64,000 nucleotides of DNA from Winogradskyella sp. PG-2 (GTDB lineage Bacteria; Bacteroidota; Bacteroidia; Flavobacteriales; Flavobacteriaceae), in the NCBI RefSeq assembly GCF_000828715.1, contig NZ_AP014583.1:3284001-3348000 (forward strand). The letters are read 5' to 3'. Shown here piece after piece: positions 27,005 through 34,405 of this stretch. Position 1 is the stretch's first letter. Each line of letters starts with the position of its first letter. The position numbers and the translations under genes are program-made. Under the pieces are notes generated by a model. That model saw nothing but the letters and a program-made list of their open reading frames with translations, had not been told where the DNA came from and ran no database searches.

Positions 27005-27901
27005 TTACTTTTCAATTTTATCATAATTTTTCAATACTTTCAGTGACCACAATGTTTGAATGCCTGCCCATTCTAATTTTGTTCCTTCACTAATTCCATA
27101 CCAAGTATCCCAACGTCCGTCATTTTTTTGTCTATTGATTAATTCTGCTAAATCAGCTTCAATAGTCTCTTTAGCAAATAGAGAATAAAGAATGCTTTCC
27201 GAAGAAGGAGCATAATTTAAACTATGCGGTTTTTCGTAAAGGCTCCAACCATCATCTGATTTATCATTACAAAGGACTCCATCAGCTAAGATCCATTTCT
27301 TTAAGTCGCTAATTACTTTTTTTGCTTTATCCTGACTTGTAGTATGTTTCAAGAACATTAGCCATCTAGGTATGCATAGATAACAAAAAACATGTTTTTC
27401 TTTTATTCGATCAAATTCATTCCAAACAAATTGTTCAGCATTCGTCATCCATGGAATATCTACATTATATTTTTCTAAAATGCCCAATAGCGGTGCTGTA
27501 GTGCTCAAAGCTGCCCATTCTTTTACTGTTTTAAAATGTTCTTCACACGGATAATCACTTTTAGGTCTTAACATCCATGGTATTCCTCCTTTTTCAGTAG
27601 TTACACTTTCAAAGTAAGGCATAAAATCTTTTTGTATTAACTCGGCACTCAAATAGCCAACTTCATCCAAGATTTCAAGAGCCATTATGCTAAATAGTGG
27701 TTGACTTTCTGGTGAAGCTGTGTCTGGTTCCATTCCATGACCAAAACCTCCGTCTGAATTTCGGTAAGCATAAACGGAATGAAATACACCTTCATTATTG
27801 CCATTTTCAAAATAGAATTCAAATAAACGTCTTTCTATCATTCTCGCATTAGACAAAATAAAGTCTTTTGCTTGTAGATAGTTGCTTTTAGATAGTTTCA
27901 T
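27005..27901 (-). CDS. Prenyltransferase/squalene-cyclase-like alpha-toroid protein
   Basis: The 298-residue cytoplasmic protein has repeats of the (alpha/alpha) toroid seen in terpene cyclases and prenyltransferase beta subunits: YAYRNSDGGFGHGMEPD near residue 45 and the C-terminal NRQKNDGRWDTWYGISEG followed by EWAGIQTLWSLKVL, which resemble QW motifs. No DxDD acid motif of squalene-hopene cyclases is visible, so cyclase activity is doubtful. It may be a toroid-fold hydrolase or binding protein. It converges on the E1 gene (18-base gap), and no neighbouring isoprenoid gene supports a terpene pathway. Confidence 0.65.
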   Translation of the reverse strand: MKLSKSNYLQAKDFILSNARMIERRLFEFYFENGNNEGVFHSVYAYRNSDGGFGHGMEPDTASPESQPLFSIMALEILDEVGYLSAELIQKDFMPYFESVTTEKGGIPWMLRPKSDYPCEEHFKTVKEWAALSTTAPLLGILEKYNVDIPWMTNAEQFVWNEFDRIKEKHVFCYLCIPRWLMFLKHTTSQDKAKKVISDLKKWILADGVLCNDKSDDGWSLYEKPHSLNYAPSSESILYSLFAKETIEADLAELINRQKNDGRWDTWYGISEGTKLEWAGIQTLWSLKVLKNYDKIEK

Positions 27902-28094: not shown

Positions 28095-30413
28095 ATGAAA
28101 AATACTTTACTTTTTGCTTTTATTTTTATGTTCTCACTGTGCTTTGCGCAAGAGATTCCAGAAGATGTTAAGCCACCTAGTTGGAACTTAGACAACTTAT
28201 CAAATGTAATTCCTTTTAAACTCGCTCCTTTTAATTTAAAAAACCTTCAAGATGAAGATGAAATAAATGATAAAGACCAATCAAAACCATGGAGATTTGG
28301 GCACGATATCTATGTAGATCACAGTTTTAATGATGTTGGTGAATGGACAACCTTAGAAAATGGAGATCGTATCTGGAGAATGTCTTATAAATCTAAAAAT
28401 GCTCATACTATAAACTTTATGTTCGATGTTTTTAGAATACCTGTTGGCGCTAAACTTTATGTATATAATAACGAAAAAACAGACATATTAAGACCTTTTA
28501 CACATCATAATAATAATCCAGAGGAAATATTGGGAACTTGGTTAGTTGAGGGTGATCAAGCTTGGATTGAATATTATCAGCCGGCACATGTAACTGATAA
28601 AGCAAAGATTGTTGTTGGTTCTGTAGTTCATGGTTATCGTACTGCAGAAACTTACCAAAAAGGATTAAATGATTCCGGTGCTTGTAACCAAGATGTAGAC
28701 TGTGATATTACACCAAGTGGTGCAGATCCTTTTGATTTAGATACCGTAAAAGAAAATGTAAAAAAGGCAAATGCTATGATGGTGACTGGATCTAATGGTT
28801 TTTGTTCGGGTACGCTTATTAATAATTCAAATAATGATGGTACACCATATTTTATGACTGCTAATCACTGTGGTGGTGGTGAGGCAGGCTGGGCTTTTAG
28901 ATTTAATTGGAGAAGTCCAAACCCATCATGTTCAACTAATGTTAATAGTACTAATGGTACTTTTAACCAAACAGTAAGTGGAGCAATTTTGAGAGCCAAT
29001 AGTTCAGAATCTGACATGGAGTTAGTGGAAATTACTGATACTAGTTTTTTTAGTAATAACTCAGATCTTGTTTGGGCAGGTTGGAATAGATCTACAACGG
29101 ATCTTCCTGCTCTTAATTTCGGTATTCATCATCCAAATGGGGACATTCAAAAAACATGTAGAGATGATGAAGGTGCTACAAGAGTTGTGTCTCCATTTAA
29201 TGGAAATTCTACTGCAAAAATGTGGTTGATAGACGATTGGGATTTAGGTGTCACTTCTCAGGGATCTTCAGGATCTGCCTTATATAATGAAACAGGCCAC
29301 CTAATAGGAGTGTTGTCTGGTGGCGGTGCTCAGTGTTCTGGAACAGTTGACAATGGCTTATCAGATATTTATGGCCGATTTGGGGTTGCATGGGACTTTG
29401 GAAGCACACAAGCAAGTAGACTTAAAGAATGGTTAGACCCTTCAAATTCTGGAGTCAATGTATTGGATCAATATCCACCATTAGAGACTTTTGGTCTAGA
29501 TGCTCGTGTTAGTGCAGGTTCTGGTAATGATTCAGAAATATGTAATGAAGCCTTTTCTCCTGAAGTGACGCTTATAAATCCAGGAAACTTAACGTTATCA
29601 TCGGCAGATGTAACATACTATATTGATTCAGAATCTAGTACTACTGTTAATTGGTCAGGTTTGTTAACAAGCGGTGGAAGTGTAGTTGTAGCAACACCAA
29701 CATTTAGTAACCTCAGTTCTGGAGATCATACATTTACTATTAGTGTGAACAATCCCAACGCTGGTTCTGACGAAAACACATCAAATGATAATTTTGTTTT
29801 CAATTTTAATGTGTCACCTTCTTATTCAACTTCTGAAATTGTATTTAACATTTTGACAGATAATTATGGATCTGAAACGACCTGGGAATTGAGAAATAGT
29901 TTAGGTGCAATAGTTAGTAGTGGACCTTCAACGCCTTATGCTAATGCTACTACATATCAAGAAACAATAACAATACCTAGTTTTAACGAATGTTACACTT
30001 TTACTATTTCTGATTCAGCGGATGATGGAATTTGTTGCGGTTATGGTATTGGTAATTATAATATTGAAGATGCTAATGGTAACGTAATCATTAATTCTAG
30101 TGGTAATTTTGGTACTTCAGAATCCATATTGTTTAAAGCTCAAGATCCATTAAGTTTAAATGAATTTGGTTTAGATGATTTAGTTAATATATTTCCTAAT
30201 CCTGTAAAAGATAATCTGGGTATTGTTTTAACCAGTATTAGTGAAAATGTTAAGTACCAAATTTTTAATACACTTGGTCAAAATATTGCAAATGGAAATT
30301 TAGAAGGAAATATGATGCATAATATTAATATGTCTCAATATTTAAGTGGAATTTATTTTATTAAGTTAAGTACTTCTTCTAGTACTATAACTAAAAAGGT
30401 CATTAAGAAGTAG
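28095..30413 (+). CDS. Secreted trypsin-like serine endopeptidase with T9SS type A sorting domain
   Basis: The 772-residue protein has a signal peptide (ends CFAQ, residue about 19), a propeptide region, then a trypsin-fold protease domain (about 225-455) resembling lysyl endopeptidases. The triad is visible as H258 (MTANHCGGG), an Asp near 305 (SESDMELVEI) and S394 in QGSSGSALYNETG. Two Ig-like/CARDB-like segments follow (about 470-690). The last 75 residues form a T9SS type A sorting domain (NIFPNPVKDNLGI, then LSGIYFIKLS, ending KKVIKK), so the protein is exported across the outer membrane and lost to the medium or anchored. It is monocistronic with a strong terminator 22 bases after the stop. 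Confidence 0.9.
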   Translation: MKNTLLFAFIFMFSLCFAQEIPEDVKPPSWNLDNLSNVIPFKLAPFNLKNLQDEDEINDKDQSKPWRFGHDIYVDHSFNDVGEWTTLENGDRIWRMSYKSKNAHTINFMFDVFRIPVGAKLYVYNNEKTDILRPFTHHNNNPEEILGTWLVEGDQAWIEYYQPAHVTDKAKIVVGSVVHGYRTAETYQKGLNDSGACNQDVDCDITPSGADPFDLDTVKENVKKANAMMVTGSNGFCSGTLINNSNNDGTPYFMTANHCGGGEAGWAFRFNWRSPNPSCSTNVNSTNGTFNQTVSGAILRANSSESDMELVEITDTSFFSNNSDLVWAGWNRSTTDLPALNFGIHHPNGDIQKTCRDDEGATRVVSPFNGNSTAKMWLIDDWDLGVTSQGSSGSALYNETGHLIGVLSGGGAQCSGTVDNGLSDIYGRFGVAWDFGSTQASRLKEWLDPSNSGVNVLDQYPPLETFGLDARVSAGSGNDSEICNEAFSPEVTLINPGNLTLSSADVTYYIDSESSTTVNWSGLLTSGGSVVVATPTFSNLSSGDHTFTISVNNPNAGSDENTSNDNFVFNFNVSPSYSTSEIVFNILTDNYGSETTWELRNSLGAIVSSGPSTPYANATTYQETITIPSFNECYTFTISDSADDGICCGYGIGNYNIEDANGNVIINSSGNFGTSESILFKAQDPLSLNEFGLDDLVNIFPNPVKDNLGIVLTSISENVKYQIFNTLGQNIANGNLEGNMMHNINMSQYLSGIYFIKLSTSSSTITKKVIKK

Positions 30414-30434
30414 ATTTCTTATTACATACAACTA

Positions 30435-30470
30435 AAAAAGTCAGTTTTTCTATTATAAAACTGACTTTTT
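30435..30470. terminator. Bidirectional Rho-independent terminator
   Basis: Perfect 14-base arms AAAAAGTCAGTTTT (30435-30448) and AAAACTGACTTTTT (30457-30470) flank an 8-base loop. It ends the endopeptidase transcript and, on the minus strand, lies 38 bases after the last micro-ORF, so it would also end that array. Confidence 0.9.
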
Positions 30471-30507
30471 GCATTTAATAACGAATGTGATTAGCATTTG
30501 AATCATA

Positions 30508-30579
30508 TTACATTTTAATATTTTCTAAGTCATCATCTAAGCTATTGGATGTATCGACTATTTTTGATAAAGTTCTCAT
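30508..30579 (-). CDS. Micro-ORF 3 of a tandem array (23 residues)
   Basis: Read on the minus strand, this frame starts with ATGAGAACTTTA like the two copies upstream of it, but then diverges. The peptide begins MRTLSKIVDTSN, continues with an acidic stretch (LDDDLEN) and ends IKM. The leader before the ATG is nearly identical to that before micro-ORF 2. It has no known family. It could be a real peptide gene or the diverged end of a non-coding repeat; the terminator 38 bases downstream suits the end of a short transcript. Confidence 0.4.
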   Translation of the reverse strand: MRTLSKIVDTSNSLDDDLENIKM

Positions 30580-30615
30580 AATTGATTTGATTTTTTTGAT
30601 TGATGAAATGTTATA

Positions 30616-30702
30616 TTACCTATAACGTCTTTTGCAGTTCCAAGTATAACTTTTTGTGTCTGTCGATGTACTTGATAATTGGTTGCTGTTTAAAGTTCTC
30701 AT
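30616..30702 (-). CDS. Micro-ORF 2 of a tandem array (28 residues)
   Basis: The peptide begins MRTLNSNQLSST, contains one Cys and ends TWNCKRRYR, so it is basic at the C-terminus. It differs from micro-ORF 1 at eight bases over 87. Two of these are synonymous and six give conservative changes (N/S twice, E/D, G/S, F/Y, S/C). That pattern is compatible with coding, but the spacer between copies is conserved just as well, so it is not proof. No known family is recognised. Confidence 0.45.
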   Translation of the reverse strand: MRTLNSNQLSSTSTDTKSYTWNCKRRYR

Positions 30703-30736
30703 AATTGTTTGATTTTTTGATTGATGAAATGTTATA

Positions 30737-30823
30737 TTACCTATAACGTCTTTTGCTGTTCCAAGTAAAACCTTTTGTTTCTGTAGATGTATTTGATAAT
30801 TGATTGTTGTTTAAAGTTCTCAT
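30737..30823 (-). CDS. Micro-ORF 1 of a tandem array (28 residues)
   Basis: The first unit of the minus-strand array encodes a peptide that begins MRTLNNNQLSNT and ends TWNSKRRYR. The start ATGAGAACTTTA is shared by all three copies, each preceded by an A-rich leader containing ATCAATY-AAAAAA. The MRTLNxNQLS start loosely resembles leader peptides of small secreted or modified peptides, but there is no double-glycine site and no modifying or export enzyme beside it. Function unknown. Confidence 0.45.
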   Translation of the reverse strand: MRTLNNNQLSNTSTETKGFTWNSKRRYR

Positions 30824-30944
30824 GTTTTTTCGTTTTTTAATTGATTTATACTTTATAGACGACATTAAATATAAAATGTTACAGTACTTTGTATAACATA
30901 GTATTGATTTAACAATTTTTAACTAAAAATGTATCTTTATACTT

Positions 30945-31361
30945 ATGAAGAAACCTATATGTTGTATTTTATTTATAGCCATACTAATATTTTCTTGCAA
31001 GAAAGAAGTGGAGAAGGTGTGCTATAATAAGATATTTCAGGTTACTGCGACTGCCTATAATTCTTTAGCATACCAAACGAGCTCTAATCCGCATATTACG
31101 GCTTTTGGTGATAGCTTAAAACCAGGGATGCGATATATAGCTGTATCAAGAGATTTATTAGATTCTGGATTAGTGCATAATACCAAAGTGAAGCTTGATG
31201 GTTTTGATAGTCTATATATCGTTAAGGATAAAATGAATAGACGTTGGAGAAAACGTATCGATATTTATATGGGTATTGATGTGAAGAAAGCAAAGCAATG
31301 GGGAAAAAGGAAGGTCAACATAGAATATTGCACCCCTTTGAAAGACTCAATTAGTCATTAG
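30945..31361 (+). CDS. 3D-domain lipoprotein
   Basis: The 138-residue protein has a lipobox signal (LIFSCK, Cys about residue 18). The mature part is a 3D domain (the double-psi barrel named for three conserved Asp, as in the C-terminal part of MltA lytic transglycosylases and in resuscitation-type proteins): FQVTATAYNSLAYQ, ITAFGDSLKPGMRYIAVSRDLL and IYMGIDVKKAKQWGKRKV, each here under the length of a full domain. It would be attached to the inner or outer membrane and bind or cleave peptidoglycan; the catalytic Asp cannot be confirmed by eye. It converges on and overlaps the ExbD-like gene by 11 bases. Confidence 0.82.
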   Translation: MKKPICCILFIAILIFSCKKEVEKVCYNKIFQVTATAYNSLAYQTSSNPHITAFGDSLKPGMRYIAVSRDLLDSGLVHNTKVKLDGFDSLYIVKDKMNRRWRKRIDIYMGIDVKKAKQWGKRKVNIEYCTPLKDSISH

Positions 31362-31875
31362 TGCGTTTTACTGGTACCTCAGAAACTATGAAAGGATATA
31401 CTTTTTTAACTACTTCTAATTCTTGTTTAGTCAATGCAATTGGTGTTTTGTTAAACTTTAATTTAGTGTAACGCGCTCTTAAATCGTAATATGCTTTTGA
31501 AATTTCATTTTGAACTTCAATAAATAAACTATATTTAGTTAGAGCATCATGGCTAAGTGAGATTACAGCATCTTTTGGGTGATCTGAAGATTCACTAGAT
31601 TGTTCCCCTTCACAATAATCACAAGCTGATTTACCATCGTTCTCAACAAATGATTTCACTAGCTGTTCTACTTCAGATAGTTCAACAATGTCGTCATTGA
31701 TCATAATTTTTTGGTTTGCATTTAAAGCAATTTTTAAAATATTACGTTCAGGAATATTCTCTTCACAATTATCAGTTTGACAAATACAGGGCAGTTTGCG
31801 TATCATGCCTTTATCAGCTGAAATGGTCGTTGTTACTAAAAAGAAAATGAGTAACAAAAAGGCAATGTCTGCCAT
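31351..31875 (-). CDS. ExbD/TolR-like protein with Cys-rich insert and missing N-terminal start
   Basis: The 174-residue protein has the ExbD transmembrane segment (MADIAFLLLIFFLVTTT, with the proton-path Asp at residue 3) and the periplasmic domain ending VKKVYPFIVSEVP. ExbD works with ExbB and TonB to couple the proton gradient to outer-membrane uptake or gliding; neither partner is nearby. Family members have a short cytoplasmic tail before SMADIAF. The frame upstream of this ATG does encode such a tail (RRHSATVNAGS) but runs into TAA with no ATG, GTG or TTG. The periplasmic part has five Cys (CICQTDNC and CDYC), not typical of the family. It may be functional from this ATG, or have lost its original start. 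Confidence 0.75.
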   Translation of the reverse strand: MADIAFLLLIFFLVTTTISADKGMIRKLPCICQTDNCEENIPERNILKIALNANQKIMINDDIVELSEVEQLVKSFVENDGKSACDYCEGEQSSESSDHPKDAVISLSHDALTKYSLFIEVQNEISKAYYDLRARYTKLKFNKTPIALTKQELEVVKKVYPFIVSEVPVKRTND

Positions 31876-33670: not shown

Positions 33671-34405
33671 GTGAGAACAATCAAAACCATATTAATTTTA
33701 TTCTGCATGATGTGTGGAATACTGGTTTTTGCTCAAGGCCCAGATAAGGAAAAGAAATCAATACGAATTCCTGCTGAAATTTCTCCGAAGAAAAAAGATT
33801 CTGCTTTAGTTAAAATTAAGGTTGCTCCTAAACCAAAAAAAGAAGACGATAAATCAAAAGGTAGTTCTAAAATTACTGACAAAAGATTTGTAATGAAGGA
33901 AACTAAAAAACCATTTTCTATGACAGAAAAAGATGGTTTAAGAAGCCCGAGTGAGATTTATGAAAAACGTTGGACTAAAGAAGCTGAGAAAGGTGGTATT
34001 ATTAGAACAATGTCTGATCAATTTTTAGGAGAACATAATGTAGATACTAAATTTGTAAATATTGTTTGTCGAGATCATGAATATCCTGATGGTGATCGTG
34101 TACAAATACAAGTCAATGGTTACATTGTTAAAGCAAATTTATTATTGACAACTAGTTATAGGCGTGTAGAAGTGAATCTTGCTCAAGGTAAGAACACTGT
34201 AGATATAACCGCTTTAAATCAAGGTGATTCTGGCCCTAATACAGCTGAGTTTGTGGTGTATGATGATAAAGGTAAAGTGATTTCATCTAAAGAATGGAAT
34301 CTTCTCACAGGTGTAAAAGCAATTATTGTTTTTAATAATGAAAAGACAGTTATAAAATCAAAATCTTCAGAAGATAATAAAGAAGATGAAGCTTCTAATA
34401 ATTAA
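33671..34405 (+). CDS. Secreted protein of unknown function
   Basis: The 244-residue protein has a signal peptide (from GTG, ending VFAQ at about residue 24). A Lys-rich linker (about 28-75) follows, with PKPKKEDDKSKG, then a globular beta-rich domain (about 95-225) containing YPDGDRVQIQVNGYIVKANLLL and GKNTVDITALNQGDSGPNTA, split here at NGY and at GDS. It ends in a Ser/Glu/Asn-rich tail. I do not recognise a family. The GTG start is chosen because it gives a complete signal peptide. It converges on and overlaps the pseudouridine synthase gene by 11 bases. Confidence 0.75.
   Translation: MRTIKTILILFCMMCGILVFAQGPDKEKKSIRIPAEISPKKKDSALVKIKVAPKPKKEDDKSKGSSKITDKRFVMKETKKPFSMTEKDGLRSPSEIYEKRWTKEAEKGGIIRTMSDQFLGEHNVDTKFVNIVCRDHEYPDGDRVQIQVNGYIVKANLLLTTSYRRVEVNLAQGKNTVDITALNQGDSGPNTAEFVVYDDKGKVISSKEWNLLTGVKAIIVFNNEKTVIKSKSSEDNKEDEASNN

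Follow-up and report, generated by a model that had tools for sequence, protein, structure and literature searches.

Tandem genes for small basic proteins behind a predicted ECF-type promoter in Winogradskyella and other Flavobacteriaceae

Background

Leader and arrest peptides of the TnaC type are encoded by a short first cistron, carry conserved C-terminal residues that keep a constant distance to the stop codon and have a hairpin close by. The type I toxins Ldr and Ibs are hydrophobic membrane peptides repressed by antisense RNAs. Of the short proteins of the DUF1127 family, those of Agrobacterium and E. coli are reported to bind the sensor kinase PhoR (PMC12501420), a Sinorhizobium member is described as controlled by attenuation via a uORF (PMC12218461), and CcaF1 is referred to as a small RNA-binding protein (PMC10253847). 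Here we describe an array of very short genes in Winogradskyella sp. PG-2 that recalls each of these systems in part and for which comparison between genomes suggests a family-wide group of small basic proteins.

Organisation of the array

The window is the whole stretch of 64,000 nt analysed here, taken from a 3.81-Mb genome assembled in a single contig; loci of other regions and genomes are cited by number (L). On the minus strand, the 12-base start ATGAGAACTTTA occurs at 30823, 30702 and 30579, with intervals of 121 and 123 nt. This threefold repetition had been seen in the original prediction, as had two frames of 28 residues and an acidic one of 23; both observations were confirmed when the sequences and ORF coordinates were rechecked. 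The 28-residue frames are called A and the acidic one short B. The features of the locus are:

30737-30823 (including stop), minus strand: A, copy 1, gene of a 28-residue basic mini-protein, MRTLNNNQLSNTSTETKGFTWNSKRRYR (ORF, repeat, family conservation)
30616-30702 (including stop), minus strand: A, copy 2, gene of a 28-residue basic mini-protein, MRTLNSNQLSSTSTDTKSYTWNCKRRYR (ORF, repeat, family conservation)
30508-30579 (including stop), minus strand: short B, 23-residue acidic mini-protein, MRTLSKIVDTSNSLDDDLENIKM, probably the 43-45-residue B with its C-terminus shortened (ORF and weak profile match over residues 1-14)
30858-30883, minus strand: predicted ECF-type promoter TGTAAC-N16-CGTC, with the -35 element at 30878-30883 and the -10 element at 30858-30861 (motif; sigma factor putative)
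30885-30903, minus strand: palindrome TACTATG-N5-CAAAGTA touching the -35 element, candidate operator of a putative regulator
30908-30923, minus strand: upstream element GTTAAAAATTGTTAAA, present by eye in most of the upstreams printed (uncounted)
30731-30747, minus strand: hairpin across the stop codon of A copy 1, 6 bp, -3.8 kcal/mol
30610-30626, minus strand: hairpin across the stop codon of A copy 2, 6 bp, -3.8 kcal/mol
30435-30470, no strand assigned: terminator-like hairpin 3' of the array, which probably also serves the convergent peptidase gene (arm complementarity)

The two full A copies form one 121-nt direct repeat with 89% identity. Copy 1 can also be read as a longer frame that starts upstream, at 30865; because this start lies inside the predicted promoter, it is probably unused. 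The terminator noted after the array corresponds to a hairpin with 14-bp, 100% complementary arms (30435-30448 and 30457-30470). As a consensus scan of 29800-31600 gave zero terminator sites, its assignment relies on this complementarity. Pfam searches on the neighbouring genes identified a trypsin-like protein with a Por secretion tail, an ExbD protein, a helicase and a pseudouridine synthase, and found no match for the frames 27005-27901, 30945-31361 and 33671-34405. Relatives of the last of these, a 244-aa frame, share AQID...KSIAIPA near the N-terminus and adjoin the array in many of the loci examined. Runs of the tetranucleotide ATCA or its complement are frequent in the spacers before small ORFs (L026-L033, L118, L205, L214) and could differ in length between strains.

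Conservation and coding capacity of A

A profile of 15 A sequences (E≤0.01) detected A in 132 of 397 sampled Flavobacteriaceae genomes and in 91 of 237 genera; the genomes were an even draw from one collection, and the copies are related by descent. In a scan of genome contigs, the best 80 of 310 confirmed stretches were located in Winogradskyella, Psychroserpens, Flavivirga, Lacinutrix, Seonamhaeicola, Mangrovimonas, Bizionia, Ulvibacter and others. Among 296 genomes of the order (family included), 7 matched, 6 from the family and 1 from outside it, the latter with a partial match (E 0.006).

The original prediction had left the coding reading unsettled and proposed frame conservation as a check. 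A loose filter gathered 164 distinct A peptides, of which 146 are 28 residues long, 15 are 29 and 3 differ from both lengths. The N-terminal part is conserved too. Neighbouring copies (n=60) are spaced by 114-792 nt, in all three phases. Of 171 copies examined over the 121 nt that begin at the A start, none has frame +1 open and 5 have frame +2 open; the second open frame once noticed through the repeat is thus not conserved. Raw pN was 0.191 versus a pS of 0.499 over all pairs of 171 distinct A coding sequences, but the copies were collected with patterns requiring parts of the conserved ends, so that pN and the invariance at these ends are partly selected. Given the near-fixed length, pN below pS and closed alternative frames, we reject an RNA-only repeat, and the accidental frames that had been considered are largely excluded. 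The alternative of real small peptides is supported, and the three frames of the window look like real, overlooked genes. Concerted evolution was also considered as a rule for multi-copy loci and rejected: of 112 copies in such loci, only 43 have their nearest coding sequence within their own locus.

The mini-protein encoded after A

Two size classes dominate the 98 distinct small ORFs found next on the 3' side of the last A: 56 have 22-27 residues (short B) and 39 have 43-45 residues (long B), the remaining 3 (28, 39 and 42 residues) being unlike B. Long B is basic, usually ends in a sequence like LWKGTKRYAH and follows A in other genera. Its profile matched in 62 of 397 genomes, some of the matches being weak or containing stops. 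At E≤1e-5 there are 54 hits; 50 of them are preceded on the same strand, at a distance of 30-222 nt, by one of the A copies listed, and the other 4 have no adjoining A among the matches listed. Many short B have a pI near 4.4-6.7, and that of the window is acidic and without the C-terminal core described below.

The profiles of short and long B align over the first 14 residues, weakly (E 0.0012, probability 19%). The frame of the window is probably a shortened B whose basic C-terminus has been lost, as this weak match suggests. The third frame had been taken for a diverged copy of A, and is better read as such a shortened relative of the 43-45-residue B. Common ancestry of A and B was not established by profile comparison (E 0.076). 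The predicted structure of B is a single helix (pLDDT 74.6, pTM 0.34), too poor for use, and a sequence search of the PDB gave nothing for long B and one chance match for A (E 6.5).

Promoter, palindrome and candidate regulators

The motif TGTAAC-N16-CGTC, exact in the window, was detected in 105 of 111 distinct A upstreams, where it begins 56-109 nt before the first A. In the genome of the window it has 16 sites, compared with 0+2 for the reversed pattern. One of them (2842662-2842687, L165) is situated 49 nt before a gene whose product has sigma-70 regions 2 and 4 (Pfam). Behind the motif this ECF sigma gene stands in one row with a 164-aa frame, which has no match in Pfam, and, two genes on from it, a DUF4252 gene; it is a candidate for the factor transcribing the array. 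Further sites precede ABC ATPase, MacB/FtsX permease, DUF4870, EI24 and DUF456 genes. A -10 CGT box has been assigned to ECF sigma factors in Flavobacterium psychrophilum (PMC9723704). Sigma genes of the ECF21 type are described as confined to Bacteroidota and adjacent to genes of envelope-spanning anti-sigma factors (PMC13088901). On the strength of the motif, the array is probably under ECF control, exerted by a sigma factor for which the gene near 2842662 is a candidate.

The palindrome TACTWTG-N5-CAWAGTA is exact in 64 of the 111 A upstreams and within one mismatch in 94. Exact copies number 3 in the genome of the window versus 0 for the control; within one mismatch, the palindrome is no commoner than its control (7 versus 8). 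Two exact copies flank an operon encoding an HTH_34 regulator, a membrane protein and a DUF4153 protein (2600908-2601921; L146, L147), which makes HTH_34 a candidate regulator of the palindrome. Out of 30 palindrome loci fetched, 6 have an HTH_34-like motif without A, 7 have A and 17 have neither, by a strict motif.

A shared C-terminal core behind the promoter

Searching for the promoter alone (GTACTGTAAC-N16-CGTC) gave hits in 162 of the 395 genomes of the family and in 114 of its 237 sampled genera, with 2 forward and 2 reverse hits for the reversed-motif control over the whole table. The loci read comprised part of these hits and 60 further regions, chosen for the most part from genomes lacking a strong A; no promoter is present in one of these regions (L365). 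Counts were made on 106 distinct promoter loci, A loci included, and compared with the means obtained after dinucleotide shuffling. The first ORF has 20-50 residues in 97 loci (shuffled mean 35.8) and at least two leading small ORFs are present in 80 (12.0). At least one small ORF carries W-x3-[RK]-x-[YF] within its last 16 residues in 91 loci (0.15), and at least two do so in 68 (0). After removal of the loci with WNxxRR or WNxxRK peptides, 52 were left, of which 39 had at least one core-bearing ORF and 28 at least two.

The core ends one or two residues before the stop codon. The 181 distinct core peptides have 22-47 residues and a median pI of 11.3, and in 176 of them the tryptophan is located 8 or 9 residues from the C-terminus. 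By the strict rule, the core is absent from 15 of the 106 loci, which include secreted-type proteins (L277, L310, L318, L336, L372), loci without a recognisable small ORF and a few near misses such as WTEVQHF. In some genomes the promoter drives a secreted-type protein in place of the mini-proteins (L317, L318, L372, L336), twice in tandem in one of them.

Many peptides behind the same promoter are otherwise unlike A. In several genera they include peptides of 36-37 residues (MKASITKTATESKTGQYFSTFSNSKRAQWAQYRNFNR), others of 43 residues with a likeness, by eye, to both A and B (MTTMKRIFEPVSEKRDNQLLNKRVFLEFCSKRDIWNGRRRFGC), the product of a first cistron, about 38-43 residues long (METLYQHQLRPKIYYTMDLGWATDHWYSQKNKNN...), a 22-24-residue type present as five tandem copies (L347) and one of 29 residues that lacks Trp and is present as four copies (L322). 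There is apparently a family-wide group in which one promoter precedes about one to five tandem small basic ORFs that differ in sequence between genera and have the C-terminal core in common. A Trp/Arg/Tyr core keeps its register in peptides whose remaining sequence varies from genus to genus, which suggests a common target contacted through the C-terminus.

Small, strongly basic, Trp/Arg-containing tandem peptides could also be cationic antimicrobial, toxic or signalling peptides acting at the envelope or outside the cell, in line with the position of the promoter motif before ABC and MacB/FtsX-type genes in the genome of the window. The original prediction had likewise thought of secreted or toxic peptides. 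This idea found no support: by eye, the peptides have no signal sequence and no hydrophobic stretch, Pfam searches on seven neighbouring genes of the window gave no maturation or immunity gene, and conservation across 91 genera is unusual for weapons. We hold this explanation to be improbable.

Constraints on the RNA of A

The last codons of A pair with bases 3' of the stop codon, which is placed in the loop. At least 5 pairs from the loop are formed in 46 of 107 representatives, versus 23.4 after swapping the 3' arms between loci, and none of 500 swaps reached 46. The third position of codon 26, synonymous for Arg within CGN, forms the pairs T-A (24), T-G (9), A-T (9), C-G (3) and G-T (1). 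RNAalifold applied to 60 copies gave no overall fold; since the post-stop arm was broken in its column alignment, the partner-swap tests were relied on for the hairpin. The stability of the latter is -3.8 kcal/mol in the window and reaches -14 to -19 kcal/mol in some genera, where it looks terminator-like (AAAAGACGTTAC-AGATAAG-TAACGTCTTTT). Where at least two A copies precede a long B, the strongest hairpin belongs to the last of them in 18 of 22 loci (3 not, 1 tie); where the B is short, this is so in 14 of 28 (7 not, 7 ties).

The first codons are constrained beyond the amino acids. AAC is found at codon 5 in 143 of 148 copies versus 27% expected, and AGA at codon 2 in 171 of 171 versus 42% expected, the copies being not independent. 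The swap tests and the binomial values for the codon constraint ignore relatedness. This synonymous constraint may reflect initiation without a Shine-Dalgarno sequence: in F. johnsoniae, an A at -3 and mRNA structure near the start are reported to matter for initiation (PMC6847099). Together with the co-varying hairpin, the constraint at the start of A indicates RNA-level roles as well, and the remark in the original prediction that non-coding parts are conserved proved right.

Such codon constraint and co-varying hairpin could belong to a small RNA acting in trans, the frames being accidental. The coding features of A speak against it, as do the other genera, which keep the promoter and the architecture with a different sequence and the same peptide core. 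RNAalifold found no overall fold in the alignment described above, and the window gave 0 hits to Rfam at the gathering cut-offs. A small RNA of this kind is highly improbable.

A outside the main array

The genome of the window contains one further A, which has a housekeeping-type promoter upstream and a histidine kinase gene downstream. Among 11 secondary A-like places in the same genus, 8 precede that kinase, 1 precedes an ABC ATPase, 1 stands alone and 1 has no A by the search pattern. In all nine A-kinase loci, that of the window's genome and those 8 (L003, L192, L193, L194, L196, L197, L199, L200, L201), a terminator-like stem of 14-17 bp starts 6-15 nt past the stop codon of A, and the kinase start lies 16-34 nt beyond it. 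The stem has a loop of 29-38 nt and compensated changes in its arms. Its position implies that the kinase is read through from upstream or transcribed from an unrecognised promoter, and the second A with its stem could be an attenuator of the sensor kinase. In other genomes, A stands first and is followed by genes that by eye are of the ABC ATPase, HlyD-like, hydrolase-like or small secreted type; this fits a role in cis. Conversely, three A arrays stand alone (L202, L203, L204), no same-strand gene of at least 60 residues clearly following them in the stretch fetched, and this favours action in trans and argues against a purely cis role.

These arrangements bear on the possibility that the peptides are leader or arrest peptides acting in cis. 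The nascent core would slow the ribosome at the stop codon of A and so control the hairpin or terminator, and thereby B or the next gene. The fixed place of the tryptophan in core peptides otherwise unlike each other would then be accounted for, and so would the co-varying hairpin with the stop in its loop, the strongest last copy before long B and the stem before the kinase. Such a role accords less well with the stand-alone arrays, with tandem duplication of a pure leader, for which there is no evident use, and with the conserved N-terminal part of A; the last-copy effect is weak with short B and the hairpin of the window is of low stability. On the whole, we find a cis-acting leader or arrest peptide unlikely.

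Proposed function

From the coding of A, the promoter motif, the arrays, the core and the hairpin, each established by comparison between genomes, we propose with some confidence that the locus is an ECF-controlled, dosage-amplified operon of trans-acting basic mini-proteins and one form of the family-wide group. Translation, action in trans and a target, like the sigma factor and the operator, are putative parts of this proposal. An ECF sigma factor would probably transcribe the array from 30858-30883. The palindrome by the -35 element may be bound by a second regulator, possibly the HTH_34 protein, whose own operon has the same palindrome. Tandem copies of A would raise the dose of a small basic protein, B following, and the stop-codon hairpin would probably tune polarity between the cistrons and thus the ratio of A to B. 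The products would most likely act in trans as stress-induced basic effectors.

Our best guess for their target, a tentative one that may well be wrong, is RNA or the ribosome, bound through the C-terminal core. A more speculative scheme, which we think rather doubtful, is a ribosome-facing stress device: the core would stall or mark a terminating ribosome, the ECF-induced array would sense or occupy ribosomes in envelope stress, and the stop-spanning hairpin would convert the event into expression of the next cistron.

In the loci read, this promoter is mostly followed by arrays of proteins short enough to be missed by gene callers, and it offers a way to find mini-proteins without knowing their sequence; the core supplies one hypothesis about them. 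If the preferred reading of trans-acting effectors is true, these proteins would be a new class of ECF-stress effectors in Bacteroidota.

Comparison with known systems

None of the peptide types tested reached the Pfam or NCBIfam cut-offs. At E≤10, the only match for A, short B and a long B was bPH_1 for this long B (0.073, below cut-off), and five further peptide types had no Pfam or NCBIfam match at E≤1. A similarity search over about 5.8 billion proteins, which needs shared 5-residue words, returned 2 for the 42-aa frame of the window including itself, 6 for a long B and 2 for a type III peptide. A literature search, beyond whose reach most subscription journals lie, found no description of such arrays. 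The genes listed for the SM6 ECF promoter motif of Flavobacterium psychrophilum are T9SS and envelope genes, and no mini-protein array was seen in that part of the source. As to precursors of RiPPs, Pfam searches on seven neighbouring frames of the window identified no modification enzyme.

The likeness to TnaC-type leader or arrest peptides lies in the short first cistron, the C-terminal residues at a fixed distance from the stop and the nearby RNA hairpin. B or another gene follows A in many loci; unlike such leaders, the arrays are tandem and also exist without a downstream gene, as in the three that stand alone. Ldr and Ibs likewise have very short ORFs in tandem repeats, but the array peptides are hydrophilic (by eye) and basic, with a pI of about 11.

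DUF1127 proteins (YjiS, the small proteins of Agrobacterium, CcaF1 of Rhodobacter) are short and basic, often below 50 residues, and encoded by stress-linked genes. The 181 core peptides agree with them in size and charge, short B being the exception. The DUF1127 Pfam model matched neither of the two A frames of the window, nor short B or a long B (E≤10), nor the five other types (E≤1), and to our knowledge tandem arrays, a W-x3-[RK]-x-[YF] core and a shared ECF-type promoter are not known features of that family. By analogy, and outside membership of the family, the DUF1127 proteins may be regarded as the nearest working parallel to the mini-proteins described here.
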